From a virus: a stretch of 25,060 bases of DNA. The stretch lies in the IMG/VR virus record IMGVR_UViG_3300050821_003246, positions 1 to 25,060 of that record; one strand, written 5' to 3'. A model generated the notes under the pieces. The model saw only the letters and a program-made list of their open reading frames with translations, was not told the origin of the DNA and ran no database searches. Positions 9,919 through 25,060 of this stretch are shown piece after piece. The first letter of the stretch is position 1; each line of letters begins with the position of its first letter. The position numbers were made by a program, and so were the translations under genes.

Positions 9919-11373
9919 ATGACGGAGAATGAGATTTGGGCGAAAGCGGTAGCTGAACTTTACAAGCGGCACGGTAACGTTCTAAGCGCACGGTCGATTG
10001 ATGAATTTGCTAGTTATGTGGCGGCGCTCGCTACTCCGTCTGTCGCGTCGCCGCAGGAGCCGTGCCCGTATAAGCTGATGCACGTTGCCGGATTTCGCTG
10101 CCCTAATTGCGGAGTGATTGAGCCGCACGAGCCCGCCCCTGTCGCGTCGCCGCAGCGGTTCGATGAGTTGCAGGACCTAGTGGCAGCGATACAGGATTGC
10201 GCTTGCAAATTTCTAGAAGGGACGACCAAAGACGAACGAAGTATCGCGCTAACAACGCTTGGCGCTCACGCTTTGGTGCTGCGAGAGGACTTTCTTACCG
10301 CTGCCCCTGTCGCGTCGCCACAGGCTGAGATGTCACAGCAGGAAGAAATTTCATGGTCGGCTTTCTGCGCTGAAAAGGCAGCAAAGTGCTTTGACACATT
10401 GCAAGCGGATGGCATGCTCACAGATCGAGAATATTTCACGGGTTACATTGGTGGAATCATCGAAGACGGTTTCAATATTTGGAAAGCAAAACGCGCCGCT
10501 CCTATTGAGGTGTTGAGCGCAGAAGGAGGTGCCATTTTGAAGGACTTACAGATACCTAGTCCATCTCAGCAAGTGTCCGGGGAGCACCGAGCGGACAGCA
10601 AGCAAACGAGTGCTGCCCCTGTCGGGGAGCCGGGGCGCACGCCGCATCGCTACTCCATGACGGCAATTTTCTCAGACGATTTTTCGCGGTTGTTGCTTCT
10701 TCGCAAACCCGACACGCATCCCAACCCTTTGTTTCGCGGCAAGTGGACGTTCCCTGGTGGACTTGTAGAAAACGGTGAGAGTGTCCAGAAGAGCGCTGAG
10801 CGTGAACTCTTCGAAGAAACACAACTGACCGCTTCTGTCCGGCCCATTCTTAGATTCTTCTGCGATTGCGATCCGACCGAAGCGGAGCACGAAATTTTCC
10901 TGTATGCGGGGACGTTGCCGATAGATGCGATGAATGGCGCTGTTGGCAGTTCCATTGAGCCGGTTCAGGTGTTCGCGGACCTGCCAGTGGATTTGATGTG
11001 GTACCTGCCGCAACTGCGAGACTTGGCGATAATGCGATTACGCCAACCCGCTGCCCCTCCCGCCCAAGGAGCGCCCACGCCACGCCTGCCAGTGAGCGAA
11101 GTGCAAAACATTCTGATGGAGGTCTGTCAGATTTTAGGCGTCAAGTTGGGGCCTGGATTAGCAACTTACGCGCCTTTGATTGCGAGGGTTCGCGCGCTGG
11201 CCGCCCAAGGAGCGCCGGGGACGCGGGAGACGCTGACAATAGACCAAGTTCGAGCGTGCCTTGCCCGAGCAGCGAATAAGAATTGGAATGTTGGGTTGGC
11301 TGTTAACGCAGAGGCACTGACGAAACTTTTGAACGCGCTGGCTCAACCGGGAGCGCCAACGAAGGAGGGGTGA
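9919..11373 (+). CDS. Modular protein with a central Nudix hydrolase domain (484 aa)
   Basis: ATG 9919 follows GAGAGGAG. The Nudix box is intact at about 281-303: GLVENGE, seven residues, then REL-F-EE (R295, E296, E299, E300) ending TQL, where Q replaces the usual Gly. GKWTFPG just before it is typical. Nudix enzymes cleave nucleoside diphosphates linked to other groups. The domain is embedded in a much larger protein. Upstream are three short blocks of about 35-60 residues, one with CPNC (61-64), joined by near-identical linkers (SVASPQ at 41, PVASPQ at 74 and 130, APVGEP at 233). Downstream are two more blocks joined by AQGAP-type linkers at 382 and 429. It looks like several small phage proteins fused in one chain. 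The Nudix call is firm; the substrate is unknown. Confidence 0.85.
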   Translation: MTENEIWAKAVAELYKRHGNVLSARSIDEFASYVAALATPSVASPQEPCPYKLMHVAGFRCPNCGVIEPHEPAPVASPQRFDELQDLVAAIQDCACKFLEGTTKDERSIALTTLGAHALVLREDFLTAAPVASPQAEMSQQEEISWSAFCAEKAAKCFDTLQADGMLTDREYFTGYIGGIIEDGFNIWKAKRAAPIEVLSAEGGAILKDLQIPSPSQQVSGEHRADSKQTSAAPVGEPGRTPHRYSMTAIFSDDFSRLLLLRKPDTHPNPLFRGKWTFPGGLVENGESVQKSAERELFEETQLTASVRPILRFFCDCDPTEAEHEIFLYAGTLPIDAMNGAVGSSIEPVQVFADLPVDLMWYLPQLRDLAIMRLRQPAAPPAQGAPTPRLPVSEVQNILMEVCQILGVKLGPGLATYAPLIARVRALAAQGAPGTRETLTIDQVRACLARAANKNWNVGLAVNAEALTKLLNALAQPGAPTKEG

Positions 11374-16248: not shown

Positions 16249-16327
16249 TGAGAACTTATAGATGTACGTTGGGCTGGGCCAAGTTCATGTTTGGAAGTAC
16301 AACCGCTGACGAGGCGGGAGGGTGAAA

Positions 16328-16852
16328 ATGTCCGATGAGCAGAAACCGCTTGGCGACGAGCCAAAGCGGAAGAAGCTGACCTTGAAACAGAGCAGGTTGG
16401 TAGCGGCGCTTCCCAAGGCAAAGACGGCCGCAGCGGCAGCAATCGAAGCGGGATATAGCCCAAAAAATCCAGATCAATCCGCCTATCAGGCATTGAAGGC
16501 AATCGAGAAAACAATGCCTGAAATGATGATAGAGCTTGGACTGACGAATAAATCTCTAATTGAGAACCATTTAGTGCCACTGCTCAGAGCAGAAAGGGTT
16601 GGATTGTATGGAACCGTTCCGGATGGTCCCACGAGGCTAGGAGCCCTCAAGCTAGCCGGTGAGTGGAAGGGCGTAAATGCGCAGAGGGACGAAGAGGCTG
16701 AACGAGATCGAGTTCGATCCAAAACGTTTACCGTACGTTTGGTCGTCGCTGACGAAAGAAGAGCAATCCGACTTTCTAAGCTGCTCTCCCATAGTGGCCC
16801 CTCTGGTGTCGTCATTGACGTGGATGCGGGAGTGGACGGAAACGTGGGATGA
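16328..16852 (+). CDS. terS: Terminase small subunit
   Basis: 174 residues from ATG 16328, about 7 bases after GGGAGG; GTG 16322 is in frame but overlaps the ribosome site. The N-terminal half has the expected HTH: LTLKQSRLVAALPKAKTAAA, then AAIEAGYSPKNPDQSAYQAL and TMPEMMIELGLTNKSLIENH, the pattern of phage small terminases that bind the packaging site ('k...F...l....n...AaiaAGYs...A...a...l.np.v'). The large-subunit gene follows. The last 176 bases overlap it out of frame, and the product tail there (SKTFTVRLVVADERRAIRLS...) is unlike the family and may be run-on. The structured segment just upstream could be its binding site. Confidence 0.75.
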   Translation: MSDEQKPLGDEPKRKKLTLKQSRLVAALPKAKTAAAAAIEAGYSPKNPDQSAYQALKAIEKTMPEMMIELGLTNKSLIENHLVPLLRAERVGLYGTVPDGPTRLGALKLAGEWKGVNAQRDEEAERDRVRSKTFTVRLVVADERRAIRLSKLLSHSGPSGVVIDVDAGVDGNVG

Positions 16853-17408
16853 GCACGATGTCGTTCATCCCTACAAGCCATTCCCGGATTACGCGTACTT
16901 CGATGTGCTGCACACGGCGTTTCACCGAGAAGCGAAGCTCTTTGTAGAGAAGAGCAGGACGGTGATGGCAACGTGGTGGGCGTGCGGTGAGACGTTCCAT
17001 TACGTGATGACTCATCAGCCAGCCAGCTGCATCTACTGGTGCCCTGACCAGGACCGCGCCGAGAAGTGCATTGAATACGTCAAGGTGCTTTATAAGCGCC
17101 AGGATCCGAGACTACTCAGCTTATATCCGCTGCCACGGAAGAAGAAGACGGTCGAAGATCAATCGGTCTTCCGGTTCGAGCTTGGCGGTGGCGGGTGGTT
17201 CGAAGCACTGCCGGGCAAGAATCCAGACAAGATCAGGTCAGAGCATCCAACCATCGTGATGATGGATGAAGCGGCCTTTAACGAGAATGGCGCCGAAGCG
17301 TATGCAAACGCGATTTCGACTAGGCCAAAGAAGTTGCTGGCGATCAGTTCGGCCTGCCCGGGCTGGTTCTTTGACCTGATAGAGCCTGCGGTAGCGTGTG
17401 ACTTATGA
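16677..17408 (+). CDS. terL: Terminase large subunit, ATPase part (split gene)
   Basis: 243 residues from ATG 16677. The packaging ATPase is recognisable: a deviant Walker A, KSRTVMATWW (92-101), Walker B IVMMDEAA (193-200) with the catalytic Glu, and the coupling motif LLAISSACPGWF (220-231). These power DNA translocation into the capsid. The frame then ends with VACDL and TGA at 17406-17408, right where the linker to the nuclease domain should begin. The nuclease part follows as a separate gene in the same frame 114 bases later. It overlaps the small-subunit gene by 176 bases, longer than usual, and the protein starts plausibly with MRRGTKRLNEIEFDPKRL. Confidence 0.85.
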   Translation: MRRGTKRLNEIEFDPKRLPYVWSSLTKEEQSDFLSCSPIVAPLVSSLTWMREWTETWDEHDVVHPYKPFPDYAYFDVLHTAFHREAKLFVEKSRTVMATWWACGETFHYVMTHQPASCIYWCPDQDRAEKCIEYVKVLYKRQDPRLLSLYPLPRKKKTVEDQSVFRFELGGGGWFEALPGKNPDKIRSEHPTIVMMDEAAFNENGAEAYANAISTRPKKLLAISSACPGWFFDLIEPAVACDL

Positions 17409-17560
17409 ATTGCCAAGAGTGCGGCCATGTCCACAAAGAAGAGGATTTCTGTGGTTTCGTGTCCCCATGCGAATGTGGTTACGGCGACGATGTTTGTTGT
17501 TGCTGCGAAGAAAGCCGAATAAGTGAAAGGCCTATCAGCGAGAAGGATCCCGATCGGTAA
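17405..17560 (+). CDS. Cysteine-rich mini-protein inserted between the two terL parts
   Basis: ATG 17405 overlaps the TGA of the ATPase part (ATGA), and the frame runs 51 codons to TAA 17558-17560, overlapping the nuclease part by 38 bases. It begins MNCQECGHVHKEEDFCGF and continues SPCECGYGDDVCCCCEES. Nine cysteines in the first 34 residues (C3, C6, C16, C22, C24, C31-34), with two histidines, point to one or two bound metal ions. The reading frame is clearly coding-like and different from that of terL. It resembles small phage zinc-finger-like proteins in style only. Either it is a small selfish or accessory gene lodged in terL, or it has a role with the split enzyme. Confidence 0.65.
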   Translation: MNCQECGHVHKEEDFCGFVSPCECGYGDDVCCCCEESRISERPISEKDPDR

Positions 17561-18437
17561 GCCTGCCGCCGGAATTCAGGTGATTCGGCTGCATTACTCG
17601 GCTGACCCGCTGATGACACCCGACCGGGTGGCTGACCTAAAGAGCGCTTATCCCGACGTCACGATGTGGGACCGGGAGATGGAGATTGACCCCCACGCGA
17701 GGGGCGGTCAGAAGTGGTTCCCGGAGTTCGACGAAAGCATCCATTTTGTAAACGTTTCGATGGATAGCTGGAGTCCGGACATTTGGACTACGTGGTTGAT
17801 GTGTGATCCGCATCCCAGGCGGGCACATGCTTTTGTGTGGTTGATGGTCAACAAGTACGGCGATTTATTGGTGCCGTGGTCGTGGTGGCCGGAAGCAGTT
17901 AACAAAGAGCGCGAGCAAAAGAGACTCGGGCGCCTTGGATGTCAGGATTACGTCGATCGATTGCGGCTGGTTGAGAATGCGAGGCTGTTCCCGAAATCGT
18001 ACATCGATTTGATGGATCCCGCTGGCGCGAACTTTGACGCCGAAGAGGACGTCAATTATTTCGAGAAGTACCGCAAAGCAGGAATTATCTTTCGGCCAGC
18101 AAAGAAGAACAGGGAATACGCCGGTTACGACAAGATCAGCGATGCGTTGCGGCTAACTGATTGCGAGGGCGTGAAACGTCCCAGGCTGCGGATTGTACGC
18201 GGGAATGGCGACAACGACATTCTAGTGTCGCAGATCAAGGGACTGCGATTCAAGGAGCTGAAAGGCGTTGCCGCTCAGGAGAAAGATGCCCCTGGCGACC
18301 CCCGAGAGAAAGAACGGCACTTGGTCGATTGCTTGAGTTACGGGCTTTTGGATGGTCCGCGATTTATTGAACCGAAGCGCCGCGGTGAATCGTTTGAGAA
18401 CCATAACGTAGTGCGGGCCCATGGAGATAGACCCTAA
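17523..18437 (+). CDS. terL: Terminase large subunit, nuclease part (split gene)
   Basis: 304 residues from GTG 17523, immediately after an in-frame TAA. It begins KGLSARRIPIGKPAAGIQVI, then RLHYSADPLMTPDRVADLK and REMEIDPHARGGQKWFPEF, the normal TerL continuation. The RNase H-like nuclease that cuts the concatemer has its acidic residues in LMCDPHP (D95), DLMDPAG (D165) and KERHLVDCLSYGLL (D269). The ribosome site is weak (AAGAAAG), so expression may depend on translation from the overlapping Cys-rich ORF. The stop lies in ACCCTAAAGGGT, a relative of the stop palindrome. Confidence 0.85.
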   Translation: MKGLSARRIPIGKPAAGIQVIRLHYSADPLMTPDRVADLKSAYPDVTMWDREMEIDPHARGGQKWFPEFDESIHFVNVSMDSWSPDIWTTWLMCDPHPRRAHAFVWLMVNKYGDLLVPWSWWPEAVNKEREQKRLGRLGCQDYVDRLRLVENARLFPKSYIDLMDPAGANFDAEEDVNYFEKYRKAGIIFRPAKKNREYAGYDKISDALRLTDCEGVKRPRLRIVRGNGDNDILVSQIKGLRFKELKGVAAQEKDAPGDPREKERHLVDCLSYGLLDGPRFIEPKRRGESFENHNVVRAHGDRP

Positions 18438-23072: not shown

Positions 23073-23308
23073 GGCAGTCGAATCTCACGCTAACGGAAAA
23101 ACAGGAATTAAGCGGAGCGCTCGGCAATCAAGTGCTGATGGGAGCCATCCGCAAGGTATTCGAGACCGAAGCTACATTCTGGCACAACTTGTTGAGCAGT
23201 GAGGCGCAAAAGCCAGATCCTAACCCGACAGTACTTGTGCAGCATGCAATTCGAGAGGCTTCGGCATTGAGAGTTGAGAAGGTGTTGACGAGGGCAGCGG
23301 GCGTATGA
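23069..23308 (+). CDS. Hypothetical protein (79 aa) after the portal
   Basis: ATG 23069 overlaps the portal stop (ATGA). The product is helical throughout: LTLTEKQELSGALGNQVLMG, AIRKVFETEATFWHNLLSSE and VQHAIREASALRVEKVLTRA. There are no cysteines or membrane segments. Its size and place suggest a small head-completion or scaffold-associated protein, but there is no motif to prove it. The stop overlaps the next ATG (ATGA). Confidence 0.6.
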   Translation: MRQSNLTLTEKQELSGALGNQVLMGAIRKVFETEATFWHNLLSSEAQKPDPNPTVLVQHAIREASALRVEKVLTRAAGV

Positions 23309-24348
23309 AGATCGCGGTCTTCTACCCCGACGCACCTCGGACGGCGTGGAGCGCGACGCACGGCATCGAAAGCACGCTGCGCCGAATGGGACATCAAGTT
23401 GTCCCCGGCCGCGTGCCGGTCGACGTGGCAAATCCAGCTCCACACGTTTTCGAAGCGATTAAAGCGACCTTCCCGTCACTAGAGACACTTCGCGGCACGG
23501 ATGCGGTGATTCTGAGCGGCCCAGAACATATCGTTCCGTGGCTTGATCCGATTTATGGGCTATATGAGTGGAAGACGATCGCCGCGCCGAAGCTGGCGTG
23601 GTACCACGAATCGTTTTTCCGCGAAGACTACACGATTGATTTCGACACTCTTCAAGCGTGGTCGGACGAGCACTTCTTTCCGGCGATTCAGGATGCGGAG
23701 TTCCACGACCAAGAGTCGTTTGCGAAGGACCGGTCGCATTGGCTGCCGCTGGGCGTAGATACGAAGATTTTCCGAGCGATTCCATGGTTTGAAGGTGATT
23801 TAGTTATCACGAAGTATGGAACCGTTAGGAAGACATGGGACATTGGTTTCATCGGCTGGATGTATGAGAAGCGAGCCCGCTTTCTGAAAGCTCTGAGCCA
23901 GCACAATCATCCGCGCGTGCGTATCGGCGGGTGTTCCGTGACGGATTTGGGCGGTTTTCAGGCCGAGGATACGGCACGACGATTGGCGGACAATTATCGG
24001 CGAGTCGGCGTGTTCTTCAATCTGCCGGCGCTTAGCCAGTTGCTCGTATCTAAAGTTTATGAGGTGATGTCTTGCGGAACGTTTTTGCTAACGCCGATGT
24101 TGTCTGCGGACCGTGGTATCTCGAAGAACATGGACCCGTTCGAGTCTGGCCGCCATCTCGTCTATTACAGATCGAGCAACGTGCCGTTCGTAGCGCAACT
24201 GTTACGCGAATGGTCAAGCGAAGAAAAGGCCGAGGAGCGCGAGAAGATCGCAGCGACTGGATCAGCCGAGGTCCACAAGAATCATTCGCTCGAGAAGCGG
24301 CTTGAGGTTTTGCTCGCGAAGTGTGGAGTAAAGGAATTAGTGCAATGA
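23305..24348 (+). CDS. Glycosyltransferase, CgeB-like GT-B fold
   Basis: 347 residues from ATG 23305. MKIAVFYPDAPRTAW opens a Rossmann-like N-terminal domain. LPLGVDTKIFRAI (147-159) and WDIGFIGWMYEKRARFLKAL (178-197) lead into the second domain, where KVYEVMSCGTFLLTP (250-264) is the sugar-nucleotide binding segment with E253. FESGRHLVYYRS and a final helix with a 'g..ev...hs..kRle.ll' ending complete the pattern of CgeB-type family 1 glycosyltransferases. The enzyme would transfer a sugar to an unknown acceptor, possibly a virion protein, host surface glycan or modified DNA base. The position between portal and radical SAM genes is unusual. The gene contains a 10/11 match to the stop palindrome at 24049-24059. 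Confidence 0.8.
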   Translation: MKIAVFYPDAPRTAWSATHGIESTLRRMGHQVVPGRVPVDVANPAPHVFEAIKATFPSLETLRGTDAVILSGPEHIVPWLDPIYGLYEWKTIAAPKLAWYHESFFREDYTIDFDTLQAWSDEHFFPAIQDAEFHDQESFAKDRSHWLPLGVDTKIFRAIPWFEGDLVITKYGTVRKTWDIGFIGWMYEKRARFLKALSQHNHPRVRIGGCSVTDLGGFQAEDTARRLADNYRRVGVFFNLPALSQLLVSKVYEVMSCGTFLLTPMLSADRGISKNMDPFESGRHLVYYRSSNVPFVAQLLREWSSEEKAEEREKIAATGSAEVHKNHSLEKRLEVLLAKCGVKELVQ

Positions 24349-24518
24349 GGTATTCGCGCGTTTCGATAGCCTTCGCAGTATTCTGGGCACTTTTTCTAGG
24401 TGGATTGATTTTGATTTCCGTGAAGTGTTTTGGTTTCTGTGGTACGCGCGCTTCAATGTCTGGCTGGTGCGAGCAGATGTGTCTCAAGCGGAATTATTGC
24501 CCGCACGGTGGCGAATGA
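24345..24518 (+). CDS. Cysteine-rich single-span membrane peptide (57 aa)
   Basis: ATG 24345 overlaps the glycosyltransferase stop (ATGA). A basic start (MRYSR) leads to one membrane span (about 6-26: VSIAFAVFWALFLGGLILIS). After it comes a short tail with five cysteines (C28, C32, C42, C46, C52). The orientation would put the cysteine tail outside the membrane if the basic end stays in. The stop overlaps the radical SAM start (ATGA), so the three genes are probably translated together. The function is unknown. Confidence 0.6.
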   Translation: MRYSRVSIAFAVFWALFLGGLILISVKCFGFCGTRASMSGWCEQMCLKRNYCPHGGE

Positions 24519-25060
24519 GCGAGCGCCATTCGGAGCTTCGCGTCTTGCGGTGGAGCGACCGCATCCAAGACATTCTGGCCGGAAAGCAGCTGGGACCGAT
24601 TCGGGCCAACATCGACCTAACGAACCTTTGCAACCACCATTGCCCTTGGTGCGAACCGCTAGACTTCCGCAAAGCCACGATCGCAGAGAAAAGTCACACA
24701 CTGAGCCCCGAGACAGTCGCTGAGGTTATGTACGACCTGAAAGAAATGGATTGCCGAGCGATTCAGTTCTCGGGCGGTGGCGAGCCGACGGTTCATCCTG
24801 AGTTTGGCGCCATGCTCGTAATGGCGAAAATCCATGAATTCCGGACACTGGTTGTCACTAACGGCGGCATGCTTGATCGCTGGATTGGTCAGCTCGGGGA
24901 TTGCGCGGATCACGTTCGCATATCTCTTGATGCCTCGAACGAAGAAGAGCACCGGAAAATGCACGGCTCCAAGGAAAAGGAGTTCGAGCATGTTTGTGAA
25001 AATGTTCGGTGGCTGGTAAAGGAAAAAGTTGGAGAGAAGTGGCCCGAGGTCGGACTGACG
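24515..25060 (+). CDS. Radical SAM enzyme, 3' end beyond the window
   Basis: ATG 24515 overlaps the previous TGA, and the frame is open for 182 codons to the window edge. RANIDLTNLCNHHCPWCEPL holds the CxxxCxxC cluster motif (C39, C43, C46) that binds the 4Fe-4S cluster used with S-adenosylmethionine. QFSGGGEPTVHPEFG (84-98) is the GGE-type SAM-binding motif, and LVVTNGGML and VRISLDASNEEEHRKMHG follow as in this superfamily. The first half resembles MoaA/SPASM-type enzymes that modify peptides or small molecules. The substrate is unknown. It follows a glycosyltransferase and a cysteine-rich membrane peptide. A second, truncated radical SAM-like gene lies at 8582. Confidence 0.85.
   Translation, partial: MSERHSELRVLRWSDRIQDILAGKQLGPIRANIDLTNLCNHHCPWCEPLDFRKATIAEKSHTLSPETVAEVMYDLKEMDCRAIQFSGGGEPTVHPEFGAMLVMAKIHEFRTLVVTNGGMLDRWIGQLGDCADHVRISLDASNEEEHRKMHGSKEKEFEHVCENVRWLVKEKVGEKWPEVGLT

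Follow-up and report, generated by a model that had tools for sequence, protein, structure and literature searches.

The window analysed here, the whole stretch of 25,060 bases from a single uncultivated virus record, encodes its large terminase (TerL) as two separate genes, one carrying the ATPase motifs and one the RNase H-type nuclease, and the same old split is shared by most members of the TerL lineage examined, with changing cargo at the junction. A two-gene TerL of long standing in its lineage, carrying a passenger gene at a cargo-accepting junction, is very probably the correct explanation of the locus, whose features are as follows:

16322 to 16852, forward strand: terS, the small terminase gene, starting at GTG 16322 or ATG 16328 (Pfam Terminase_2, E 5e-5, below gathering; PHROG terminase small subunit, 2e-6).
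16677 to 17408, forward strand: terL-N, the ATPase chain of 243 aa, from ATG 16677 to TGA 17406-17408 (PHROG terminase large subunit, 1.1e-6).
17405 to 17408, forward strand: ATGA, the overlap of ATPase-chain stop and mini-ORF start, read from the sequence.
17405 to 17560, forward strand: Cys-rich mini-ORF of 51 aa from ATG 17405, a probable passenger gene (CxxCGHxH...C...CxC...CCCC).
17427 to 17522, forward strand: competing 31-aa ORF in the ATPase frame, with its TAA directly before the nuclease GTG (codon score 6.3 bits).
17523 to 18437, forward strand: terL-C, the nuclease chain of 304 aa, starting at GTG, with the RNase H-type acidic residues D95, D165 and D269 at conserved positions.

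The coordinates given by an earlier sequence-only reading hold at this locus: the ATPase ORF (16677-17408) ends about 14 residues after SSACPGW, the nuclease ORF runs with TerL sequence from GTG 17523 to 18437, and the gap of 114 bases between them, with the in-frame stops TGA 17406-17408 and TAA 17520-17522, carries the mini-ORF, which is out of frame with the ATPase, starts in the ATGA overlap and contains nine cysteines within its first 34 residues. The terS gene was also found upstream of terL in the relatives L001, L003, L007 and L009, and in all five genomes the two genes overlap by 164-197 nt in different frames (window 16677-16852; L001 4285-4448; L003 3782-3978; L007 2277-2452; L009 3797-3960). 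Conservation within this overlap is recognisable in both frames (terS end IDVDA.VD..LG; terL RLPYVWSSLT...WTxTWDEHD), and it looks like a long, conserved case of dual coding. Elsewhere in the window, all three forward frames are open at positions 1-220, where a tandem protein repeat (AASSGDYSKAASSGDYS...) lies at the window edge, a Cas4/PD-(D/E)XK-like exonuclease lies at 1649-2710 (PHROGs 1.3e-12), and a 484-aa ORF at 9919-11373 has a Nudix-box-like stretch (GGLVENGESVQKSAERELFEETQL) within Pro/Ala-rich repeats (PVASPQ, for example). A glycosyltransferase-like gene at 23305-24348 (Pfam 3.3e-11), located downstream of the structural genes, is followed at 24425-25060 by an ORF that contains the motif CNHHCPWC and resembles a radical SAM enzyme.

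Both chains exhibit the features expected of TerL. The separate ATPase ORF retains a Walker-A-like EKSRTVMATW, the Walker B motif IVMMDEAAF and the coupling region SSACPGWFFD, it matched T4 gp17 (3ezk) in a profile search with E 0.007, and its fold is represented by the homologous part of the model of the single-chain TerL of L007 (pLDDT 87), whose best match was T4 gp17 (E 2.5e-13). The nuclease half gave no match in a Pfam search; its AlphaFold2 model (pLDDT 80) matched the nuclease part of D6E TerL with Z 19.0 over 178 residues and the P22 TerL nuclease domain with Z 16.9, and D95, H266 and D269 are invariant in an alignment of 21 sequences, so that this separate ORF has the RNase H-type fold together with its acidic residues. 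Mapped on the L007 model, the split point falls after helix 230-236, at the strands of residues 239-252. Compared with the split relative L001, the ATPase half is 81% identical (pN 0.15, pS 0.80) and the nuclease half 72% identical (pN 0.19, pS 0.72); judged from these substitutions, both halves are under purifying selection and neither is decaying in the lineage of the window.

Close relatives were found on four viral contigs, and they display different states of the same locus. L001, with 75-83% identity to the window in the best segments, is split without any insert: its ATPase ORF ends in ...IEPAVACKL*, and the nuclease ORF (MKGLSARRIP...) begins in an ATGA overlap. In L003/L006 the halves are separated at the same point by a gene of 175 aa of the HNH_3/NUMOD4 type, whose ATG overlaps the ATPase stop, and in L007/L008, where the ATPase half is 68% identical to that of the window, terL is intact as one gene of 547 aa. 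The breadth of the split was assessed by a scan of uncultivated viruses with an alignment of the ATPase half as the query, which has no bias to split genes and returned 33 loci, and the junctions were surveyed by placing profiles of both halves on all open frames in 28 distinct lineages. In 25 of these 28 lineages TerL is split at the same linker, and the remaining three (L007, L033 and L038) have a single gene. The junction is direct in 17 of the 25 split lineages (-19 to about +23 nt, i.e., within about 25 nt), often as NTGA or TAATG, and a gap of 114-1457 nt was observed in the other eight. A start codon placed on the ATPase stop, as in the window, was found in L001, L003, L023, L024, L025, L026, L034, L043, L044, L046, L048 and others. 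In an unrooted tree of the ATPase half, the window groups with L001 and L003 with support of 96/89, and the single-gene rows lie in separate places, requiring three changes; the tree does not polarise the order of split and fusion within the family, and the single genes may be re-fusions. All of the relatives are metagenome contigs. Two scans of genome contigs with the ATPase half found no relatives in cells or prophages, and searches for annotated cultured phages of this TerL lineage yielded only remote matches to single-chain TerL, or nothing.

The separation in 25 of 28 lineages, the purifying selection on both halves and the retention of motifs and folds support a two-chain TerL, as the sequence-only reading had suggested. 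The lineage encodes its large terminase as two adjacent genes, an ATPase chain and an RNase H-type nuclease chain, cut at the linker that follows the last ATPase helix and usually joined through a four-base overlap or an abutting stop and start. Ribosomes that end the ATPase chain could start the nuclease chain, and one packaging motor would presumably form from the two chains with no peptide bond between them. The repeated uptake of small genes at the junction could be accounted for by a boundary that takes added DNA without breaking either chain. In the window, this cargo would be a 118-nt segment, the window looking like the insert-free L001 with that length added, and its 51-aa Cys-rich ORF would start at the ATGA that ends the ATPase ORF.

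Extra DNA at the eight gapped junctions differs in content between the lineages. The cargo observed in the relatives is as follows:

L046, 4896 to 5468: gene of the Mom DNA modification family (Pfam 1.5e-19, PHROG 5.5e-24).
L023, 5697 to 5873: short ORF started at ATGA, with a truncated DNA methyltransferase (PHROG 1.6e-5).
L003: HNH_3 plus NUMOD4 endonuclease gene.
L024: short hydrophobic protein.
L026, L030 and L034/L035: proteins of unknown function.

The Mom gene of L046 overlaps both terL halves by four bases, starting at GTGA and ending at ATGA. The ORF of L023 retains no more of a DNA methyltransferase than its start, SPPYWGLR, and is apparently a decayed cargo gene. In L034 (1007-2464) and L035 (1328-2713), about 1.4 kb with several unknown ORFs lies between the terL halves, the last of these ORFs having 66-69 aa, a WCQWCGF motif and a four-base overlap with the nuclease start. 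The changing cargo favours a passenger over a subunit for the Cys-rich ORF of the window, which is most likely one more case among the many different passenger genes at this junction.

Whether the mini-ORF is a gene was assessed from its composition and frame. Dinucleotide shuffling of the insert, repeated 20,000 times, gave an open frame of at least 34 codons with at least nine cysteines at a fraction of 5e-5, codon shuffles in the ATPase frame gave the same open, Cys-rich outcome at 5.5e-4, and at least nine cysteines per 34 residues occurred in four of about 6,560 stop-free stretches, the mini-ORF included, in 381 kb of the window and the fetched loci. Its codon use is atypical: it scored -4.5 bits, and true coding stretches of equal length averaged +7.7 (sd 4.9), a normal range into which the 31-aa ORF in the ATPase frame falls. 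When codons of the Cys frame are shuffled, the ATPase frame stays open in 92% of cases, and the Cys frame is open in only 2% of the shuffles if the ATPase frame is the coding one; coding in the Cys frame thus explains the open ATPase frame and not the reverse, and for this reason the Cys frame is judged likelier to be real, the 31-aa ORF being probably its by-product. In favour of the mini-ORF, it begins on the ATPase stop in exactly the manner of cargo genes in the relatives; against it stand the codon use and a 38-nt overlap with the nuclease start, longer than the about 4 to 22 nt of the cargo genes measured in relatives, which complicates the access of ribosomes to GTG 17523. Taking these patterns together, we lean towards the Cys-rich frame being the translated frame of the insert. 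A homologue search for the Cys-rich protein, as had been suggested, came back empty in the related contigs and collections searched: an 8-mer scan of viral contigs found none, the pattern CGYGDDxCxC had 0 matches, inspection of the eight matches of CxCGYGDxxC revealed no similar small protein, tblastn against phages and plasmids and blastn with the insert returned nothing, and no described family, including any endonuclease family, was matched in Pfam, PHROGs, NCBIfam or PDB sequences, where short proteins are easily missed. The protein is possibly zinc-binding, and most likely it is a passenger.

Several other explanations of the split were weighed. The sequence-only reading took the mini-ORF as the cause, and an insertion into an intact terL does agree with the precise position at the linker and with the intact gene of L007/L008, 68% identical in its ATPase half; however, the nearest relative L001 is split without the insert, L003 is split with a different gene, 17 of the 25 split relatives have no cargo and the window groups with the split L001 and L003 on the tree, so that this origin is highly improbable. 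That a homing endonuclease entered terL first and was later lost, as in L001, or replaced, as in the window, is compatible with the preferred explanation and remains unlikely rather than remote. It is favoured by the HNH_3/NUMOD4 gene exactly at the L003 junction, by documented functional two-chain splits such as mobE in Aeh1 nrdA and mobA in T4 gene 60 (PMC2988022) and by the clustering of homing endonucleases near terminase genes (PMC10448857), but an endonuclease gene between the parts was observed in only one of the 25 split lineages, L003, where its arrival may have followed the split; cargo elsewhere is unrelated, and the insert of the window has no trace of an endonuclease. The earlier view that the insert is too small for a mobile element is right for the window, though not for the site, which hosts a homing-type endonuclease in L003. 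A functional role of the Cys-rich protein as a third subunit that binds zinc and bridges or regulates the two chains would suit its position between the halves, its start on the ATPase stop and its zinc-finger-like cysteine spacing, unlikely by chance. It is nevertheless very improbable, as the protein has no match in the related contigs examined or collections searched, is absent from the closest split relative and is replaced at that spot by unrelated cargo in others; a three-chain motor in which the 51-aa zinc-binding protein would bridge or regulate the chains in place of the covalent linker is very unlikely.

Rejoining of the halves after transcription, by intron or intein splicing, stop read-through or programmed frameshifting, may be suggested by the shared frame of the window halves and by the introns and inteins in terminases of other phages (PMC10448857; PMC7156551). 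The common frame noted in the sequence-only reading is indeed present, but carries no meaning: relative to L001, whose nuclease lies in the -1 frame through the ATGA overlap, the nuclease start of the window has moved by 118 nt, a shift of 1 mod 3 that puts the halves in one frame by coincidence. Frameshifting or read-through needs a fixed frame relation, and the 25 split lineages are spread over all three phases (14/6/5), which argues against recoding. Searches for introns, RNA structure and inverted repeats gave nothing convincing: the intervening sequence had no Rfam match, an intron ribozyme core included, and no unusual RNA fold (z 0.07), and a weak inverted repeat of 13 nt (77%) flanks the insert. 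The Rfam result, the fold z-score and the length speak against a group I or II intron, 114 bases being too short for a group I intron, and the stops at both ends exclude an intein; with nothing to splice out in L001 either, rejoining is scarcely credible. An assembly or sequencing artefact, which might be considered for a single uncultivated virus record of 25 kb, has a close to negligible probability, since 25 lineages drawn from many separate metagenome records have the split, their start codons lie at the stop, and selection constrains both halves.

The two-gene TerL of the window shares its two folds and motifs with T4 gp17, D6E, Sf6 gp2 and the P22 and SPP1 nuclease domains, all of which, unlike the window, belong to a TerL made as one polypeptide. 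According to the general view (review PMC7617512), the domain movements driving packaging are transmitted by the ATPase-nuclease linker; a lineage without that peptide bond would allow a direct test of whether translocation depends on covalent coupling or whether this coupling just keeps cutting and pumping together. The junction also represents a clear cargo site in an essential gene that is usually undivided, and its cargo includes genes for DNA modification and homing. An interrupted terL is shared with ICP1, which splices its terminase (PMC10448857), Jug phages (PMC12363816), Bastillevirinae (PMC11878797) and Mic1 (PMC7156551), but in those cases terL is rejoined by RNA or protein splicing, whereas no intron or intein was found in the window. 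Homing endonucleases are known to have split essential phage genes whose two-chain products still work, and the start/stop overlap of T4 nrdA/mobE has been discussed as a coupling arrangement (PMC2988022). As in Aeh1 nrdA (mobE), T4 gene 60 (mobA) and gene 43 of phages 25 and 44RR, an essential enzyme would be made as two chains from neighbouring genes, with a homing endonuclease or other sequence between the parts in some relatives (PMC2988022); the present split differs in the gene concerned, in a window cargo that is no endonuclease and in being the rule across a broad lineage. Similar in arrangement are the Arthrobacter cluster AY phages, for which a two-ORF TerL with adjacent separate genes for the ATPase and nuclease domains was reported (BlueShadow genes 2 and 3; PMC12820723); compared by description, no cargo is mentioned between their terL genes, unlike the window, and tblastn with the window halves matched no AY-cluster record, so that AY is probably a different TerL lineage. 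In the open-licence literature searched, no description of the present lineage, or of a cargo site between terL halves, was found. The two-ORF TerL itself is thus already reported, and what is new is a broad lineage in which the split is the rule and the junction serves as a cargo site.
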